NCBI GenBank assembly: GCA_036522515.1
Contig: DATDFQ010000043.1
Coordinates: 248,001-312,000, forward strand
Direction of reading: 5' to 3'
Source: Bacteroidota bacterium
GTDB lineage: Bacteria; Bacteroidota; Ignavibacteria; UBA10030; SZUA-254
Length of the DNA: 64,000 bases
Part shown: positions 9,630 to 56,657 of the stretch, in pieces
How the letters are laid out: each line of letters begins with the position of its first letter
Position numbering within the stretch: the first letter of the stretch is position 1
Notes under the pieces: generated by a model
The model's database searches: none
Told to the model about the DNA's origin: nothing
The model's input: only the letters and a program-made list of their open reading frames with translations
Translations under genes and position numbers: made by a program

Positions 9630-9704
9630 TGGGCGCTACTGGGATCGAACCAGTGACCTTACGCGTGTGAGGCGTACGCTCTGAACCAGCTGAGCTAAGC
9701 GCCC
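9630..9704 (-). tRNA. tRNA-Val (anticodon CAC)
   Basis: The minus strand folds into a complete cloverleaf. The acceptor stem is GGGCGCT/AGCGCCC, the D arm contains AGCTCAGCTGGTTCAGAGC, and the anticodon stem TACGC/GCGTA encloses the loop CTCACAC, giving anticodon CAC. The T arm is ACTGG-TTCGATC-CCAGT. The discriminator base is A and CCA is not encoded. It decodes GTG valine codons, which are frequent in this GC-rich genome. It sits about 100 bases upstream of the PyrR leader on the same strand. Confidence 0.98.
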
Positions 9705-9819: not shown

Positions 9820-9981
9820 CCGCAGGCTAAAGCCTGCGGCTACCGAACCCGAAACATCAGAAGCCGCGGACAAGACCAAGGCATCGGTAGGCGCGACCTT
9901 CAGGTCGCGTGGAGTTTAACGCAGGCTAAAGCCTGCGCCTACCAAACCCGAGGCATCGGTGGCCGCAACCCTCAGGTCGCG
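9820..9981. repeat. REP-like palindrome array, copy 1
   Basis: Three clear palindromes occur: CGCAGGCTAAAGCCTGCG at 9821-9838, CGCGACCTTCAGGTCGCG at 9892-9909 and CGCAGGCTAAAGCCTGCG again at 9920-9937. A degenerate fourth (GCAACCCTCAGGTCGC) lies near 9964. The spacers share CTACC, AAACCCGAGGCATC and GGTAGGC with copies at 43079 and 50407. The units lie between genes and could fold as RNA or DNA hairpins. Confidence 0.85.
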
Positions 9982-20654: not shown

Positions 20655-20779
20655 CGCAACCTGAAGGTTGCGGCTACCGGCGCGTCCGGCCGCAGAGCGG
20701 CACGCAACCTGAAGGTTGCGCCTACCGACTCGGCTACCAGTTCACTCGCGTGGTCGGTAGGCGCGGGCTTCAGCCCGCG
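20655..20779. repeat. REP-like palindromes, copy 2 (variant stems)
   Basis: Palindromes CGCAACCTGAAGGTTGCG occur at 20655-20672 and 20703-20720, and CGCGGGCTTCAGCCCGCG at 20762-20779, with the shared GGCTACC/CCTACC and GGTAGGCG flanks. Compared with copy 1 both arms of each stem have changed together, so pairing is kept. The region separates the divergent secA and dacB genes. Confidence 0.82.
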
Positions 20780-25377: not shown

Positions 25378-26325
25378 ATGAGAATAGCGGCGATCGATAT
25401 CGGGACGAATACCGTCCTCCTTCTCATCGCCGATATCGACCCCAACGGGTCGATTCAGCCTGTCCATAACGAACTCCGGTTTCCCCGCCTCGGCCGCGAC
25501 GTTGACAAGATGCGGATGATCCGCCCTCCTGCCTTTGACCGGATCGCCTGGGTCCTGAACGAATACAAGAATCTCTCGATCCAGTTCAAGTCGGACCTGA
25601 TCACCGCCTGCGCGACAAGCGCGCTCCGGGATGCTGCAAACCGCGATGAGTTCCTCGCCTACCTCCGGAGCACGGCGGGGGTGGAAGTTGAAATTCTGAG
25701 CGGCGAGGAGGAGGCACGGCTGGCCTACGATGGGGCCTTGAGCGGTTTCGATTCGACCTCCCGGCCGGCTGCGGTTATCGACATCGGGGGAGGAAGCACC
25801 GAGGTCTCGTATCCGGTAAAAGACCGGATTCCGTCCATCGGAAATTCCTTAAGTTATCTTAGCTTTCAGCTTGGGGCAGTTAGACTTACAGAGCGGTACC
25901 TGAACCACAATCCTCCCACGAGCGAGGAACTCTCCAAGGCCCGCCGGATTGTCCAGGAGGGATGGGAGTCGATCCAAGATTTGTCAGGCGGAGACTATTC
26001 GCTTATCGGCGTGGCCGGAACCGTCACCACGCTCGCATGCCTTGACCAGGGATTAACCGAGTTTGACGCGAACCTCGTGGGGGGTTATACGTTACCCCGG
26101 GAGCACGTTGAAAGATGGTTCAGGAGGCTCTCTGAAATGAGGTCTGCGGAAATCGAGGCCCTTACCGAGGCTGCCCAGGGGCGGGCCGACATACTGGTGG
26201 CCGGGTCCCTCATACTCCTTGAATTCATGATCCGCTTCCGGTTCGAGGAAGTTATCGCCAGCGACCGGGGACTGCGGTACGGTCTGGCGATCAGGGAATG
26301 GAAGAAGCGAAATACGCTAAGATGA
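25378..26325 (+). CDS. Ppx/GppA-family phosphatase (exopolyphosphatase-like)
   Basis: The 315-residue protein is the short form of the Ppx/GppA family in the ASKHA fold. It has AAIDIGTNTVLLLIAD (phosphate-1 loop), ACATSALRDAANRDEFL, EILSGEEEARLAYDGAL with the catalytic Glu region, VIDIGGGSTEVS (phosphate-2) and GVAGTVTTLACL. Such proteins cleave polyphosphate or pppGpp. The short version lacks the C-terminal HD-like domain of E. coli Ppx. The start abuts the prmA stop. The stop codon lies at the very edge of a TCATCCTGAGG-type repeat. Confidence 0.9.
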   Translation: MRIAAIDIGTNTVLLLIADIDPNGSIQPVHNELRFPRLGRDVDKMRMIRPPAFDRIAWVLNEYKNLSIQFKSDLITACATSALRDAANRDEFLAYLRSTAGVEVEILSGEEEARLAYDGALSGFDSTSRPAAVIDIGGGSTEVSYPVKDRIPSIGNSLSYLSFQLGAVRLTERYLNHNPPTSEELSKARRIVQEGWESIQDLSGGDYSLIGVAGTVTTLACLDQGLTEFDANLVGGYTLPREHVERWFRRLSEMRSAEIEALTEAAQGRADILVAGSLILLEFMIRFRFEEVIASDRGLRYGLAIREWKKRNTLR

Positions 26326-26391
26326 GATCCTTCGGTCGCTTTGCTCCCTCAGGATGACAGCATCCGGCCGCTTCGCTCCCTCAGGATGACA
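26324..26391. repeat. TCATCCTGAGG-type repeat, two tandem units
   Basis: Two units in the same orientation read GATCCTTCGGTCGC...CTCCCTCAGGATGACA (26325-26359) and CATCCGGCCGCTTCGCTCCCTCAGGATGACA (26360-26391). Each resembles an element pairing CAGGATGACA with a GATCCTTCG stretch. It fills the entire space between the convergent ppx and cysteine desulfurase genes. The last three codons of the desulfurase (TCA TCC TGA) lie inside the second unit. Confidence 0.75.
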
Positions 26392-27565
26392 CTTTCTGCC
26401 CGATCCGCTCCACGATATCGGTCAGAACTCCTGCCGTGTAGTCGATATCCTCCTCTGTCGTCGAACGTCCCATCGAGAAGCGGATGGCGGCCTTTGCGGT
26501 AGCCGGGTCTCTCCCCATGGCGAGAAGGACGTGCGAGGGTTCCATGCTCCCCGAAGTGCATGCCGAGCCGCTTGTGACCGCGATTCCGGCAAGGTCGAGA
26601 TTGAAGAGGAGAGCTTCCCCGTCGATCCGGATCCTTTCGCTGTCGAACGAAACGCTGAGTATGTGAGAAAGTGCTCCGGAGGGTGTCTGGTCTCCGTTGA
26701 ACAGGAGCCACGGATGACGCTCGCGGAGCGATGAGCGGAGCCGGTCCTTCAACTCGACGAGCCGCTGCCGCTCGGCTTCCATTTGGCGCTGCATCGCGGC
26801 TGCGGCTTCCGCAAAACCTACCGCGCCAGGAACATTTTCGGTTCCCGCCCGCCTGCCCCGTTCCTGACCTCCCCCGTGGAGATAACGCTCGATTTCAATC
26901 CCCTTCCGGACATAGAGGGCCCCGATTCCCTTGGGACCGTAGATCTTATGAGCCGAGAGTGAAAGGAGATCGACGCCGAGCAGGTCGACATTGACCGGTA
27001 TCTTGCCGAAGCTTTGCACGGCGTCTGAATGAACGAGAATGCCCTGAGCTTTCGCGATGCGGGCCACGCCGGCAACAGGATTGATTGTGCCCACCTCGTT
27101 ATTTGCGTGCATCACAGAGATAAGGCCCGTTTGAGGCCGGATCGCAGCGCGGAGATCTTCCAGCTTTACACGGCCCGATCCATCGACATCCAGATAGGTC
27201 ACTTCGAACCCGGTCTGTTCAAGCCCCGCGCAGGGCTCGAGGACCGCATGATGCTCGGATTTGTCCGTGATGATGTGGTTCCTGCCCCGTGCCATCAGGG
27301 CCCGGCCCGCGCCCTTGAGCGCGAAATTATTCGCCTCTGTTCCGCCGCTGACAAAGAAGACCTCGCCCGATTGCGCCCCGATCAGGCGAGCGAGCGTATC
27401 GCGGCTCTCGTCGAGCGCCGCCCGCGCTTCCCTCCCGAAATGATGAATCGACGAGGCGTTTCCGAAACGGCCGCTAAAAAACGGTTTCATTGCCTCGAAG
27501 ACTCCGGGATCGAGCGGAGTGGTGGCGGTATGATCGAGATAGACTCTCCGGACAGTCGTTTGCAT
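26381..27565 (-). CDS. Cysteine desulfurase (NifS/IscS family)
   Basis: The 394-residue PLP enzyme begins MQTTVRRVYLDHTATTPLDP. Lys is in SLSAHKIYGPKGIG (Schiff base), the His stack is in NEVGTINPV/SEHHAVLEP, and the catalytic Cys is in TSGSACTSGSMEPSHVL. It moves sulfur from cysteine to Fe-S scaffolds or tRNA thiolation enzymes. No iscU follows in the window. I chose the ATG at 27565; longer frames run through repeat DNA. A promoter places the transcription start at or next to this ATG, so the message looks leaderless. The C-terminal codons are shared with a dispersed repeat. Confidence 0.94.
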   Translation of the reverse strand: MQTTVRRVYLDHTATTPLDPGVFEAMKPFFSGRFGNASSIHHFGREARAALDESRDTLARLIGAQSGEVFFVSGGTEANNFALKGAGRALMARGRNHIITDKSEHHAVLEPCAGLEQTGFEVTYLDVDGSGRVKLEDLRAAIRPQTGLISVMHANNEVGTINPVAGVARIAKAQGILVHSDAVQSFGKIPVNVDLLGVDLLSLSAHKIYGPKGIGALYVRKGIEIERYLHGGGQERGRRAGTENVPGAVGFAEAAAAMQRQMEAERQRLVELKDRLRSSLRERHPWLLFNGDQTPSGALSHILSVSFDSERIRIDGEALLFNLDLAGIAVTSGSACTSGSMEPSHVLLAMGRDPATAKAAIRFSMGRSTTEEDIDYTAGVLTDIVERIGQKVSS

Positions 27566-27600: not shown

Positions 27601-27606
27601 CTCTGG

Positions 27607-27656
27607 CAGCCGCGGGCTTGAGGCTGCGTGGACCAGCACGCGACCTGAAGGTCGCG
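27607..27656. repeat. REP-like palindromes, copy 3
   Basis: CGCGACCTGAAGGTCGCG lies at 27639-27656, followed by CCTACC. A decayed partner (GCAGCCGCGGGCTTGAGGCTGCG) spans about 27607-27628. It lies between a terminator and a promoter, in non-coding DNA. Confidence 0.78.
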
Positions 27657-27691
27657 CCTACCGAAGCCGAACCCGGCCTGGGGTGAGGTGC

Positions 27692-33267: not shown

Positions 33268-33284
33268 GTGAGTTTGGGCTGAGC

Positions 33285-33373
33285 TTGTCATCCTGAGGTC
33301 GCGGAGCGACCGAAGGATCTGGCTTTTCTGCCTCGAAAAGGATGGAGATCCTTCGCTTCGCTCAGGATGACAA
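33285..33373. repeat. TCATCCTGAGG-type repeat, inverted pair
   Basis: TTGTCATCCTGAG (33285-33297) is matched exactly by CTCAGGATGACAA (33361-33373). Inner parts GACCGAAGGATCT and GAGATCCTTCGCTTCG also pair, so the 89-base element can fold into one long hairpin. It lies between the P-loop protein gene and ytxH. It shares units with 26324-26391. Confidence 0.8.
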
Positions 33374-42260: not shown

Positions 42261-42987
<727 letters not shown>

Positions 42988-43078: not shown

Positions 43079-43140
43079 CGCAGGCTGAAGCCTGCGCCTA
43101 CCAAACCCGAGGCATCGGTAGGCGCGACCTTCAGGTCGCG
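43079..43140. repeat. REP-like composite element, copy 4 (most complete)
   Basis: The element reads CGCAGGCTGAAGCCTGCG, CCTACC, AAACCCGAGGCATC, GGTAGG, CGCGACCTTCAGGTCGCG. The two end palindromes flank a central CGCCTACC/GGTAGGCG inverted repeat, giving three stackable hairpins. It lies between the redox operon promoter and the metH stop codon. Copies at 9820 and 50407 share the central spacer. Confidence 0.88.
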
Positions 43141-43174: not shown

Positions 43175-46100
43175 TCAGATATTAAAATACCGCGCCTCGG
43201 GGTGGTGGACGATCAGGGCGGAAGTGGATTGCTCGGGGACGAGCTGGTACTGCTCCGTCAGTTCCACGCCGATCCGTTCGGGACGGAGGAGTTCGAAGAG
43301 TTTTGTTTGATCCTCCAGGCTCGGGCAGGCCGGGTAGCCGAAGCTGTAGCGGGAGCCCCTGTAGTGCTGGCTGAACAGCTTCCTAATCTCGGGACTGTCT
43401 GCCCCGTCGATTCCGAGTTCGGCCCGTATCTCTTTGTGCCATAACTCCGCGAGCGCTTCGGCGGACTCGACGCCGAGCCCGTGGAAATAAAGGTATTCCT
43501 TGAACTTCCCTTCCTCGAAGAGACGGCGGCTCTGGTCCGACGCCACGGCTCCCATCGTCACGAGGTGAAATGCGGCCACATCCGTCTTTCCGGAATCGAC
43601 CGAAGCGAAGAAATCCGAAATGCAAAAAAACCGGCCTTTGCTCTGACGCGGGAATGTGAATCGCATCCATTCGACGAGGTCCGGCGTCCTCGGCGCGCCC
43701 GCCGGGGGAACCGACTCCGGCAACCAGAGCGAGACCGGATCGTCCAGGCCCGCGGGCCGGTAGAGTATCAGGTCGTCGCCTTGCGAGGCGCAGGGGAAAT
43801 ACCCGTAGACCACTTTCGGCTCGAGGAGCCGCTCATCCCGGACTTTCCGCTTCAGCGCCTCGAACTCAGGATAGATCGTTTCTTCGAGCAGGGTCCGGTA
43901 CTCGGCATCGGTCGTGTTCTTCTTCCGGATCTGCCACTGGCCTCGGATCAACGCTGTCTCGTTGATATAGGGAAACAGATCGTTGAGGGCGATCTTCTCA
44001 ACGACCTTCGATCCCCAGAACGGCGCCCGCGGGATGTCGGCCGGCGCGACGCTCCGCTCGACCAGGTGCGTCCCGGGGGAAGCGAGCGCGATCTTCGCTT
44101 CGAGGCCCGAAAGATCCTCGCCGTTCGCCGGCTCGACCGCCGGGGCGGGAGAAGACCGTGCCATTCCGGCTGCCGGATCGCCCCCCGATGCGATTCGCTC
44201 CATGTAATGCAATCCATCGAAGGCGTCGTTCGCGTACAGGACCGGACCCGAATACACCTGCCGGAGATCCTGTTCGACGTAGCGTCTCGTGAGGGCGGCC
44301 CCGCCCAGGACGACAGGAACCCTCAGGCCGCGTTCGTGCATGACCTCGAGATTCTGCTTCATGATGAGGGTCGATTTGACCAGGAGCCCCGACATGCCGA
44401 TCGCATCCGCCTTGTGCTCCTCGGCCGCACTGAGCATCCGTTCGAGAGGACATTGGATCCCGAGGTTGAAGACCCGGTACCCGTTGTTCGTCAGGATGAT
44501 ATCGACGAGGTTCTTTCCGATGTCGTGGACATCCCCCTTCACGGTGGCGATCACCATCGTCCCTTTCGAAACCGAGTCGGCCTTGTCCATGAATTGTTCA
44601 AGATATCCGACCGCGCTCTTCATCGCGGTCGCGGATTGGAGGACGAACGGAAGCTGCATCTGCCCGCTTCCGAACAGGTCCCCCACGACCTTCATGCCGT
44701 CGAGGAGGATGGTGTTGATGATTTCGAGGGCGGGATGGGTGCGGAGCGCTTCGTCCAGATCGTCGTTCAACCCCACCAGATCCCCGTCGATGATCCGTTG
44801 TTTCAACCGCTCCTCGACGGCCCGGGGCCTCTCGGCTTTCTTCCGGGTTTCCCCTTTCCTGCCGGCGTAAAAGGCGAGCAGATCTTTGAGGGGATCGTTC
44901 CCCCCGGCGCGTTCGTCGAAAATCAGCCTCCGGCAGAATTCCCTCTCCTGTTCGGAGATCGTATAGAGCGGGACGATTTTCGAAGCGTGCACGATCGCCA
45001 TGTCGAGCCCGTACTCGATTGCGTAATGGAGAAATACGCTGTTGAGGACATGCCTCGCATGGGGCGAGAGGCCGAACGACACGTTGCTCAACCCGAGGCT
45101 CGTATGGACATGCGGGAACTCCTTCTTGATCGCCCGGACGGCCTCCAGCGTCTCGACCCCCGACTTCCGGAATTCCTCGTCTCCCGACCCGAGCGTGAAG
45201 GTGAGAGCATCGAAAATAAGGTCCTGATCCCTCATCCCGTACCCGCGGGTCGCACGGTCATGGATGCGCCGCGCGATCTCGAGTTTGCGGGAGACGGTCT
45301 TGGCCATTCCCTGTTCGTCGATCGTCAGGGCCACCACCGCGGCCCCGTATTTTCTGCACAGCGGCAGGACGGCCGCCAGCCGCTCCTCGCCGTCTTCCAG
45401 ATTGACCGAGTTTACGATCGCTCTCCCGGCGATACGCTGGAGCGCCTCTTCGATCACCGGCGCCTCCGTGGAGTCGATCATGAGAGGCGCCGTCATTTGC
45501 GTGTTGAACCGGGTGATCAATTCGCGCATGTCGGACGCCTCGTCGCGCCCGACGTAGGCGACGCACACGTCGAGGATATGAGCTCCCTCTTTGGTTTGAG
45601 TCTTGCCCATCGCGACCATCCCCTCCAGGTCCTGTTTGACCAGGAGCTCGCGAAACTGTTTGCTGCCGTTGGCGTTCGTCCGCTCGCCGATGAGGACGGG
45701 GGGAGGATCGATATGCAGGGGCGCGGTCTGGTAGAGGCTCGAGCAGCCGGGCGTAAATCTGGCGTCGCGTTTCTTCGGGGAGAGGGAACCGACGGAGGCG
45801 ACGAGCTGCCTCAGATGTTCCGGGGTCGTCCCGCAACAACCGCCGACGACGCTGACGCCCAGGTCCGTCACGAAGTGTGAAAGGTAGCGGACAAATTCTT
45901 CCGGCGTGAGTTTATAGTGGGCCAGGCCCCCGACATTCTCAGGCAGTCCCGCATTCGGCATGACGAACACCGGCTTCGGGCTGTTCTCGCAGAGGTAGCG
46001 CACGCTTTCGGACATTTCCTTCGGTCCGGTGGCGCAATTCATCCCGATCAAATCGACGTCGAAGGGTTCGAGCGCCATCAGGGCGGCCGCAATCTCGGTC

Positions 46101-46708
46101 CCGAGGAGCATCGTGCCCATCGTCTCGACCGTGACCGATGCGATCACGGGTATCCGCGACCGCCGTTCCTGGAAGTAGCCAAAGATTCCTCCCAGCGCGG
46201 CCTTCGCCTGCAGCAGGTCCTGGCATGTTTCGACGATCAGGAGGTCGGCCCCTCCGTCGACCAGCCCCTTCGCCTGGGTATAGTACCCCTTCTCCATCTC
46301 CTTGAAGCTGATGTGGCCCAGGGACGGCAGCTTCGTGGTCGGACCCATCGACCCCGCGACAAATCGGGGCCTCCCCGCCGAGGAGTAGTCGCGCGCGACC
46401 TTCTTCGCGAGTTTGGCGGCTTCGAGATTCAGGATATAGGCCCGGTCGGCAAGCTCGTATTCGGCCAGCACCACCGGGTGGCCGCCGAAGGTATCCGTTT
46501 CGATCACGTCGCACCCTGCTTCGAGGAACCCCGCATGGACCGCTTCGACCGCCGGCGGCTTCGTGACGACGAGATTCTCGTTGCATCCATGATACCGTTC
46601 CCCCCCGAAATCCTCGGGATTGAGATTCTGATCCTGGATGGATGTCCCCATCGCCCCGTCGAGAACGACGACCTTCTCCTTCACGATGTCGAGGAATGAT
46701 TCTGCCAT
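43175..46708 (-). CDS. metH: Cobalamin-dependent methionine synthase
   Basis: The 1177-residue protein contains all MetH modules. The homocysteine domain (1-320) has zinc ligands Cys225, Cys291 and Cys292 (GMNCATGP, GGCCGTTPEH). The methyl-tetrahydrofolate domain (about 335-620) has IGERTNANGSKQF. The B12 cap and B12-binding domains (about 625-880) have the lower-ligand His728 in GDVHDIGKN. The SAM-dependent reactivation domain (about 900-1177) has GSRYSFGYPACPSLEDQ. It methylates homocysteine to methionine using methylcobalamin. I saw no cobalamin riboswitch upstream; the nearest structure is a terminator belonging to the preceding gene. Confidence 0.97.
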   Translation of the reverse strand: MAESFLDIVKEKVVVLDGAMGTSIQDQNLNPEDFGGERYHGCNENLVVTKPPAVEAVHAGFLEAGCDVIETDTFGGHPVVLAEYELADRAYILNLEAAKLAKKVARDYSSAGRPRFVAGSMGPTTKLPSLGHISFKEMEKGYYTQAKGLVDGGADLLIVETCQDLLQAKAALGGIFGYFQERRSRIPVIASVTVETMGTMLLGTEIAAALMALEPFDVDLIGMNCATGPKEMSESVRYLCENSPKPVFVMPNAGLPENVGGLAHYKLTPEEFVRYLSHFVTDLGVSVVGGCCGTTPEHLRQLVASVGSLSPKKRDARFTPGCSSLYQTAPLHIDPPPVLIGERTNANGSKQFRELLVKQDLEGMVAMGKTQTKEGAHILDVCVAYVGRDEASDMRELITRFNTQMTAPLMIDSTEAPVIEEALQRIAGRAIVNSVNLEDGEERLAAVLPLCRKYGAAVVALTIDEQGMAKTVSRKLEIARRIHDRATRGYGMRDQDLIFDALTFTLGSGDEEFRKSGVETLEAVRAIKKEFPHVHTSLGLSNVSFGLSPHARHVLNSVFLHYAIEYGLDMAIVHASKIVPLYTISEQEREFCRRLIFDERAGGNDPLKDLLAFYAGRKGETRKKAERPRAVEERLKQRIIDGDLVGLNDDLDEALRTHPALEIINTILLDGMKVVGDLFGSGQMQLPFVLQSATAMKSAVGYLEQFMDKADSVSKGTMVIATVKGDVHDIGKNLVDIILTNNGYRVFNLGIQCPLERMLSAAEEHKADAIGMSGLLVKSTLIMKQNLEVMHERGLRVPVVLGGAALTRRYVEQDLRQVYSGPVLYANDAFDGLHYMERIASGGDPAAGMARSSPAPAVEPANGEDLSGLEAKIALASPGTHLVERSVAPADIPRAPFWGSKVVEKIALNDLFPYINETALIRGQWQIRKKNTTDAEYRTLLEETIYPEFEALKRKVRDERLLEPKVVYGYFPCASQGDDLILYRPAGLDDPVSLWLPESVPPAGAPRTPDLVEWMRFTFPRQSKGRFFCISDFFASVDSGKTDVAAFHLVTMGAVASDQSRRLFEEGKFKEYLYFHGLGVESAEALAELWHKEIRAELGIDGADSPEIRKLFSQHYRGSRYSFGYPACPSLEDQTKLFELLRPERIGVELTEQYQLVPEQSTSALIVHHPEARYFNI

Positions 46709-50406: not shown

Positions 50407-50439
50407 CGAGGCATCGGTAGGCGCGACCTTTAGGTCGCG
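50407..50439. repeat. REP-like element, copy 5 (half element)
   Basis: CCGAGGCATCGGTAGG precedes the palindrome CGCGACCTTTAGGTCGCG at 50422-50439. Only the right half of the composite unit seen at 43079 is present. It lies between the divergent dut gene and the recombinase remnant. Confidence 0.82.
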
Positions 50440-56362: not shown

Positions 56363-56412
56363 ACAAGAACGTTGCACCAACCCACCTTCCCGCGAAGGTA
56401 TTCTGGGTGATC

Positions 56413-56630
56413 ATGCCGGTCGGTCTCCTGGCTTTTCCCGACCCCGGGCGGTCTTCCCATCCGGATCCGATCTGAACCGGAACCGAACAGTGACTTACGA
56501 GCCCGAAGCTCAATTCCGCCGGAATGACCGGACGGAATCGGGATTACAGTTGCGGGGCAGCTTCCGAATTCTCCATGGTCCCACGCTGAGCGCGGACCGG
56601 GAGGCACGGAATTCCCTTCACCGGCACGAA
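56413..56630 (-). promoter_or_regulatory. Cobalamin (adenosylcobalamin) riboswitch
   Basis: The minus strand contains the conserved blocks in order: GGTGAAGGGAATTCCGTG, GCTGCCCCGCAACTGTAA, AAGTCACTG and the B12 box AGCCAGGAGACC (56422-56433). Lengths and order match the cobalamin riboswitch family. The RNA starts just after the promoter at 56658-56686 and is followed by a terminator stem before btuB. Confidence 0.95.
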
Positions 56631-56657
56631 GTATGGAAAAGAACTTGATTCAACGGC

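Follow-up and report, generated by a model that had tools for sequence, protein, structure and literature searches.

GTAG-tagged REP units in inverted pairs of unlike stems form a large BIME population in a Bacteroidota genome where no cognate RAYT was found

The element at positions 43079-43140 of the analysed window, a stretch of 64,000 nucleotides from a Bacteroidota bacterium, raises the question of what kind of repeat its two end hairpins belong to, whether this repeat is mobile DNA and which enzyme could have spread it. A sequence-only reading of the window had described a REP-like composite element in which two palindromes surround an inverted core. Hairpins, facing core and spacer are indeed present as described, the order being hairpin CGCAGGCTGAAGCCTGCG, CCTACC, a 14-nt spacer, GGTAGG and hairpin CGCGACCTTCAGGTCGCG. 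The “inverted core”, CGCCTACC/GGTAGGCG, corresponds to the GTAG tags of two opposed repeat units facing each other (a TT pair in the terms of PMC3733652). The repeat unit proper is the 24-mer GGTAG[G/C]CGC-NNNN-TT[C/T]A-NNNN-GCG, whose GTAG tag is followed by a 7-bp hairpin with the stem CGCNNNN and the loop TTYA, one base separating tag and stem. It thus has the make-up of a REP, a short palindrome of 20-40 bp which bears an unpaired GTAG tag on one side. Two occurrences of the facing core CGCCTACC...GGTAGGCG were counted in the window (20719 and 43095) and none in 100 shuffles. The GACC unit at 43117..43140 folds, on its own, as a 7-bp hairpin of -8.4 kcal/mol, and folding yields a z of about -4 for hairpin stability. 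The element is flanked by two minus-strand reading frames, metH (43175-46708, assigned via Pfam) with its 3' end towards the element and a short ORF (42601-42987) with its start towards it.

Altogether the window contains 12 units at five loci (Table 1). Repeats were found at each of the loci named by the sequence-only reading and the stems listed there are real. The assertion that each change in one stem arm is matched in the other applies to the 10 units with perfect 7-bp stems and fails for the remaining two, 9958-9981 and 27605-27628. Similarly, the repeats are genuine while the notion of one composite element has to be given up since no single fixed unit exists: the repeats occur singly, in pairs with the tags either inside or outside, and in longer arrays. 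Four alternating units are present at 9821-9981 and three units at 20655-20779; 27605-27662 is a tag-outside pair devoid of the core, 43079-43140 a clean tag-inside pair and 50416-50439 a single unit which has kept half of the spacer.

Table 1. Repeat units and associated spacer in the 64,000-nucleotide window.
Feature	Position	Strand	Remark
REP unit, stem AGGC	9821..9844	-	
REP unit, stem GACC	9886..9909	+	
REP unit, stem AGGC	9920..9943	-	
Partly decayed REP unit GGTGGCCGCAACCCTCAGGTCGCG, one stem mismatch	9958..9981	+	
REP unit, stem AACC	20655..20678	-	
REP unit, stem AACC	20703..20726	-	
REP unit, stem GGGC	20756..20779	+	
Decayed REP unit GGCAGCCGCGGGCTTGAGGCTGCG, two stem mismatches	27605..27628	+	
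REP unit, stem GACC	27639..27662	-	Tag-outside (HH) pair with 27605-27628, 10-nt gap
REP unit, stem type AGGC, GGTAGGCGCAGGCTTCAGCCTGCG	43079..43102	-	Left half of tag-inside (TT) pair
14-nt spacer AAACCCGAGGCATC	43103..43116	.	Recurs with substitutions in other TT pairs of the genome
REP unit, stem type GACC, GGTAGGCGCGACCTTCAGGTCGCG	43117..43140	+	Right half of TT pair
Single REP unit, stem GACC, loop TTTA	50416..50439	+	TT spacer remnant AAGCCCGAGGCATC to the left

The assembly of the source genome (G000) comprises 3.5 Mb in 64 contigs and is 99.89% complete. A pattern in which each arm may have any base at its four inner stem positions retrieves 367 exact copies from it, while the reversed-pattern control retrieves none. 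Relatives of the same order harbour 0 to 10 copies each and no other genome among the 395 sampled from the phylum exceeds 12. The exact 24-mer, searched in the contigs of other genomes, gave no matches, hence the GACC form is rare outside the source genome. Pair statistics were obtained from 1.43 Mb of the 3.5 Mb and amount to 40 TT, 29 HH and 19 direct pairs, the unit being defined slightly differently from the neighbour comparison below. The alternating orientation along with recurrent spacings (14 nt in TT pairs, 10 nt in HH pairs) is that of BIMEs, and the high copy number, the extragenic location and the complementary stem variants which distinguish REPs are all found here. We therefore regard the repeats as a GTAG-type REP/BIME family which is ordinary in kind. 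Palindromic repeats with spacers might also call to mind CRISPR-like arrays, integron cassettes or mere chance palindromes. Yet the alternating orientation, the GTAG tag, the lack of a regular array, the absence of copies in the reversed-pattern control of G000 and the absence of any matching Rfam family at the repeat sites leave practically no probability for such an origin, which anatomy and copy-number control exclude. In the Rfam comparison of the window merely a cobalamin riboswitch and a tRNA were matched (56401-56640 and 9630-9704, both on the minus strand); the gene for a B12-dependent methionine synthase likewise lies in the window (43175-46708).

Further repeats were observed in this genome. 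A third dispersed repeat, TCATCCTGAG...GCG, forms hairpin-like arrangements at 26325-26401 and 33276-33370 of the window and yields about 115 pattern matches in the 1.43-Mb sample. Two REP pairs in G000 possess spacers, GTAGGGGCGACGCATGCGTCGCCC and GGGCGGGGCATGCCCCGCCCCTAC, which resemble another family of GTAG-tagged palindromes.

As claimed beforehand, the copies lie between genes: all 12 window units are outside the genes called there and, on the 446-kb contig C43, 34 of 36 units are intergenic compared to 7.8% of all 24-mers, as judged by a simple in-house gene caller trained on this very contig. Of these 36 units 20 are placed between co-directional genes, 16 between divergent ones and none between convergent ones, a split which roughly matches the available intergenic space. 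Mobility is indicated by the array at 20655-20779, which is absent from the orthologous intergenic region between secA and the D-Ala-D-Ala carboxypeptidase gene in a sister species (G001, contig C114). This genome, belonging to the same genus, aligns on both sides of the array and thus displays a clean empty site, so that a copy is present in one species and the orthologous site empty in the other, as required of a mobile element. The array represents a precise insertion in a promoter region. The element at 43079 is likewise missing in G001, its flanks being too diverged to define a precise site; the flanks of the 50416 locus are too diverged as well, and comparison of the 43079 locus with G003 gave no alignment of use. 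Being stable and intergenic, the hairpins could in principle be transcription terminators or RNA 3'-end hairpins selected site by site instead of mobile DNA. We consider this very improbable: no unit on C43 resides between convergent genes while 16 reside between divergent starts, T-runs do not follow the window copies, the GTAG tag is found again throughout the genome, as are the 14-nt spacer and the 10-nt gaps, and the 20.66-kb array was precisely inserted into a promoter region. Due to the missing convergent bias a terminator role was rejected.

The sequence-only reading had ascribed the matched stem changes to selection on hairpin structure. In the 1.43-Mb sample 164 of 170 units retrieved without any demand for pairing possess perfect inner stems, while shuffling of the 3' arms yields 38.9 on average and 57 at maximum. 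Formal covariation was calculated for 52 distinct units from the source genome and the RAYT loci described below. Standard pairs account for 95.9% of their pair cells and the covariation score amounts to 0.504, compared to 0.169 with shuffled 3' letters (not one of 500 shuffles reaching the observed value); with slid pairings it does not exceed 0.093. This strong signal bears out the claimed selection, the copies being related, however, with about eight stem types amplified in the genome, so that the independent compensated changes behind it are of that order and do not number hundreds. Over all genomes 16 distinct, perfectly paired stem cores were counted. Starting from exact GACC units with the 14-nt spacer and leaving the partner unselected, we found 22 of 39 partners to form perfect 7-bp stems, the others being decayed, shifted or missing, from which it follows that both constraint and decay occur.

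A conspicuous regularity emerges upon comparison of neighbouring units, defined as units within 150 bp of each other. Among neighbours of opposite orientation identical stems never occur, neither in the source genome (0 of 73 versus 18.3 expected from stem frequencies) nor at the RAYT loci across phyla (0 of 44 versus 14.2 expected), whereas neighbours of the same orientation share their stems in 14 of 18 and 11 of 15 cases, respectively; these pairs descend partly by copying and the cases are not independent. In the sampled data it is hence a strict rule that inverted neighbours are unlike in stem while direct neighbours are mostly alike. Identical inverted REP pairs, as they define REPINs of the Pseudomonas type, are consequently not among the 73 pairs. 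The actual stem pairs vary between phyla, yet all of them obey the rule. At one locus (L112, contig C163 of G063) a RAYT of the clade described below is flanked by units with altered stem bases, GGTAGTCGAATGC.. on one strand and GGTAGKCGAAACA.. on the other; these retain tag and loop, have changed stems and comply with the different-stem rule. Heterodimers are known from other REP families, for which protection from SbcCD has been suggested, and the occurrence of homodimeric versus heterodimeric REP pairs among bacteria has been called a feature without obvious explanation (PMC3733652). A single enzyme clade, a single tag and loop and many stem pairs make the idea of hairpin independence, or avoidance of a long palindrome, directly testable.

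The sequence-only reading had found no RAYT in the window and supposed the mobilising enzyme, if any, to be elsewhere. Both statements stand: the only RAYT detected in the genome is on contig C58, and RAYTs flanked by the GTAG unit exist in relatives and in other phyla. In relatives, a RAYT lineage which differs from the RAYT of the source genome resides inside clusters of the GTAG unit (L032, L033). Searching with this lineage returned 26 loci under named records in about ten phyla, including Nitrospirota, Planctomycetota, Aerophobetes, WOR-3, Omnitrophota, Spirochaetes and Gammaproteobacteria, and across phyla the GTAG unit adjoins many of these RAYT genes. In a tree of 67 RAYTs the unit-associated lineage forms a clade with a support of 100/100. 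A unit is present within 400 bp at 24 of 42 loci of the lineage set compared to 1 of 25 loci of other RAYTs; the 18 loci of the set without a unit within this distance include several inside the 100/100 clade. At the former 24 loci the RAYT is thus accompanied by the same REP in the manner of a REPtron. Homology links the clade to E. coli TnpAREP (PDB 4er8, E=1.8e-9); the HuH motif is present and the catalytic Y115 is aligned to Y127. The cognate enzyme of the unit is very probably a member of this one RAYT clade. Across many phyla this repeat family is thereby newly linked with a transposase lineage of its own.

The situation in the source genome is different. The RAYT on C58, assigned via NCBIfam, is the only Y1 transposase detected in it and falls outside the 100/100 clade. 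No GTAG unit is present in the 3.3 kb around the gene (L031), which sits instead among GTTCCCACGC...GCGTGGGAAC repeats. Flanking of a RAYT by copies, for which the earlier reading had suggested a test, hence holds for relatives and other phyla and not for the C58 enzyme. The GTTCCCACGC...GCGTGGGAAC palindromes cluster at L031:900-2000 and constitute a second REP-like family, with 27 single-strand pattern matches in the 1.43-Mb sample. Since the C58 RAYT carries the HuH and Y...NP motifs and is the sole Y1 transposase detected, it might mobilise the GTAG units in trans. This is improbable, however, as it lies outside the clade flanked by the GTAG unit, has repeats of another kind and no GTAG units at its own flanks, and as the REPtrons described are repeat-specific (PMC3733652).

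A RAYT of the cognate clade was not found in the source genome at any threshold used, nor is any RAYT there flanked by the GTAG unit, a result for which a gap in the assembly may be responsible. The genome thus combines an unusually large REP population with a lack of any detected cognate RAYT. The population may be a true orphan, its cognate RAYT being lost and its about 370 copies persisting by host use (e.g. mRNA end protection or gyrase sites) or owing to incomplete decay. This refines, and is compatible with, the preferred explanation given below, and we concede it slightly less than an even chance. The lack of a cognate RAYT at any threshold in an assembly of 99.89% completeness is in its favour, as are the varying states of the copies, with intact hairpins beside diverged spacers and decayed partners, and the known loss of the REPtron from E. 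coli strains (PMC3733652). On the other hand, those of the 64 contigs which were read all measure at least 2001 bp, and units lie within 400 bp of 6 of 80 contig ends; a small RAYT contig flanked by REPs could therefore be missing. Relatives with units also lack a RAYT of the clade in three cases (G008, G130, G230). One of them, G130, belongs to the same class and harbours 12 units with no clade RAYT at E <= 1e-40, possibly a second, smaller population devoid of its enzyme. In the source genome a large REP population can be studied apart from its cognate RAYT.

Taken together, the repeats are, with high probability, best explained as GTAG-tagged REPs arranged as BIMEs, i.e. short non-autonomous mobile DNA spread by a RAYT of the Y1 (HuH) type. 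What speaks against this explanation is the missing cognate RAYT in the source genome, the placement of the C58 enzyme in another clade and among other repeats, the 18 loci of the RAYT set that have no unit nearby and the lack of the enzyme in several relatives with units. In single-stranded DNA, for instance the lagging-strand template, a unit would expose its GTAG tag beside the 7-bp hairpin with TTYA loop. The RAYT would recognise tag and hairpin, cleave nearby and paste copies elsewhere, of which mainly those between genes would survive; this cleavage chemistry is presumed by analogy with work on TnpAREP of E. coli and Stenotrophomonas. Because the substrate would be the hairpin, pairing would be kept while the stem sequence drifts. 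Units of opposite orientation may be kept only with differing stems since each would then fold alone and no single long palindrome would arise. A cognate RAYT presumably acted in the source genome and was later lost or left unassembled. Beyond that, we tentatively put forward, as a rather doubtful extension, that a single RAYT clade might have accompanied a single REP architecture (GGTAGS-CGC stem, TTYA loop) on its way through about ten phyla, with the unlike-stem rule strictly obeyed and the present population having expanded far beyond that of its relatives and persisting without an enzyme of its own, via a foreign RAYT or host use.

Compensated stems, heterodimers and lost RAYTs have already been described for other REPs. 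The present family resembles the GTAG REP superfamily and its BIMEs (Di Nocera et al. 2013, PMC3733652) in the terminal GTAG, the stem of 6-9 bp and short loop, the TT and HH dimers and larger groups, the intergenic location, the subfamilies with complementary stem changes, the RAYT association and the preference for heterodimers shown by some families. Compared by description, it deviates from this superfamily, whose 2013 set covers Proteobacteria, Cyanobacteria, Chloroflexi and PVC, in its CGCNNNN stem, its TTYA loop, the one base between tag and stem and the complete lack of same-stem inverted pairs. With the REPINs of Pseudomonas (Bertels & Rainey 2011, PMC3116915) it shares a spreading unit built of two inverted REPs and a short spacer, compensatory changes and the link to a RAYT. 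The doublets of SBW25, however, consist of identical REPs and are rarely mixed (PMC3116915), whereas the inverted pairs studied here are always unlike. The family also resembles the y, z1 and z2 BIMEs of E. coli with TnpAREP (RayT, 4ER8), where unlike REPs alternate, the GTAG tag is present, the enzyme is homologous, strains without RAYT are known and the substrate is, as may apply here by analogy, a single-stranded hairpin. In contrast to the E. coli stems with their required bulge the present stems are perfect, as in group 3 REPs (Stenotrophomonas, Marinomonas Mb; PMC8266576). The enzymes of the clade, finally, resemble TnpAREP/RAYT subclasses 2.1-2.8 (PMC6006769) in their HuH (mostly DHxH), WQ and Y...NP motifs and their length of about 160 aa. 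Their common Y motif, Y[I/V]L[D/N/E/Q]NP together with WQK, exactly matches no single tabulated subclass and comes nearest, as a motif, to 2.5 and 2.7, and, as in these subclasses, their patchy distribution suggests horizontal transfer.
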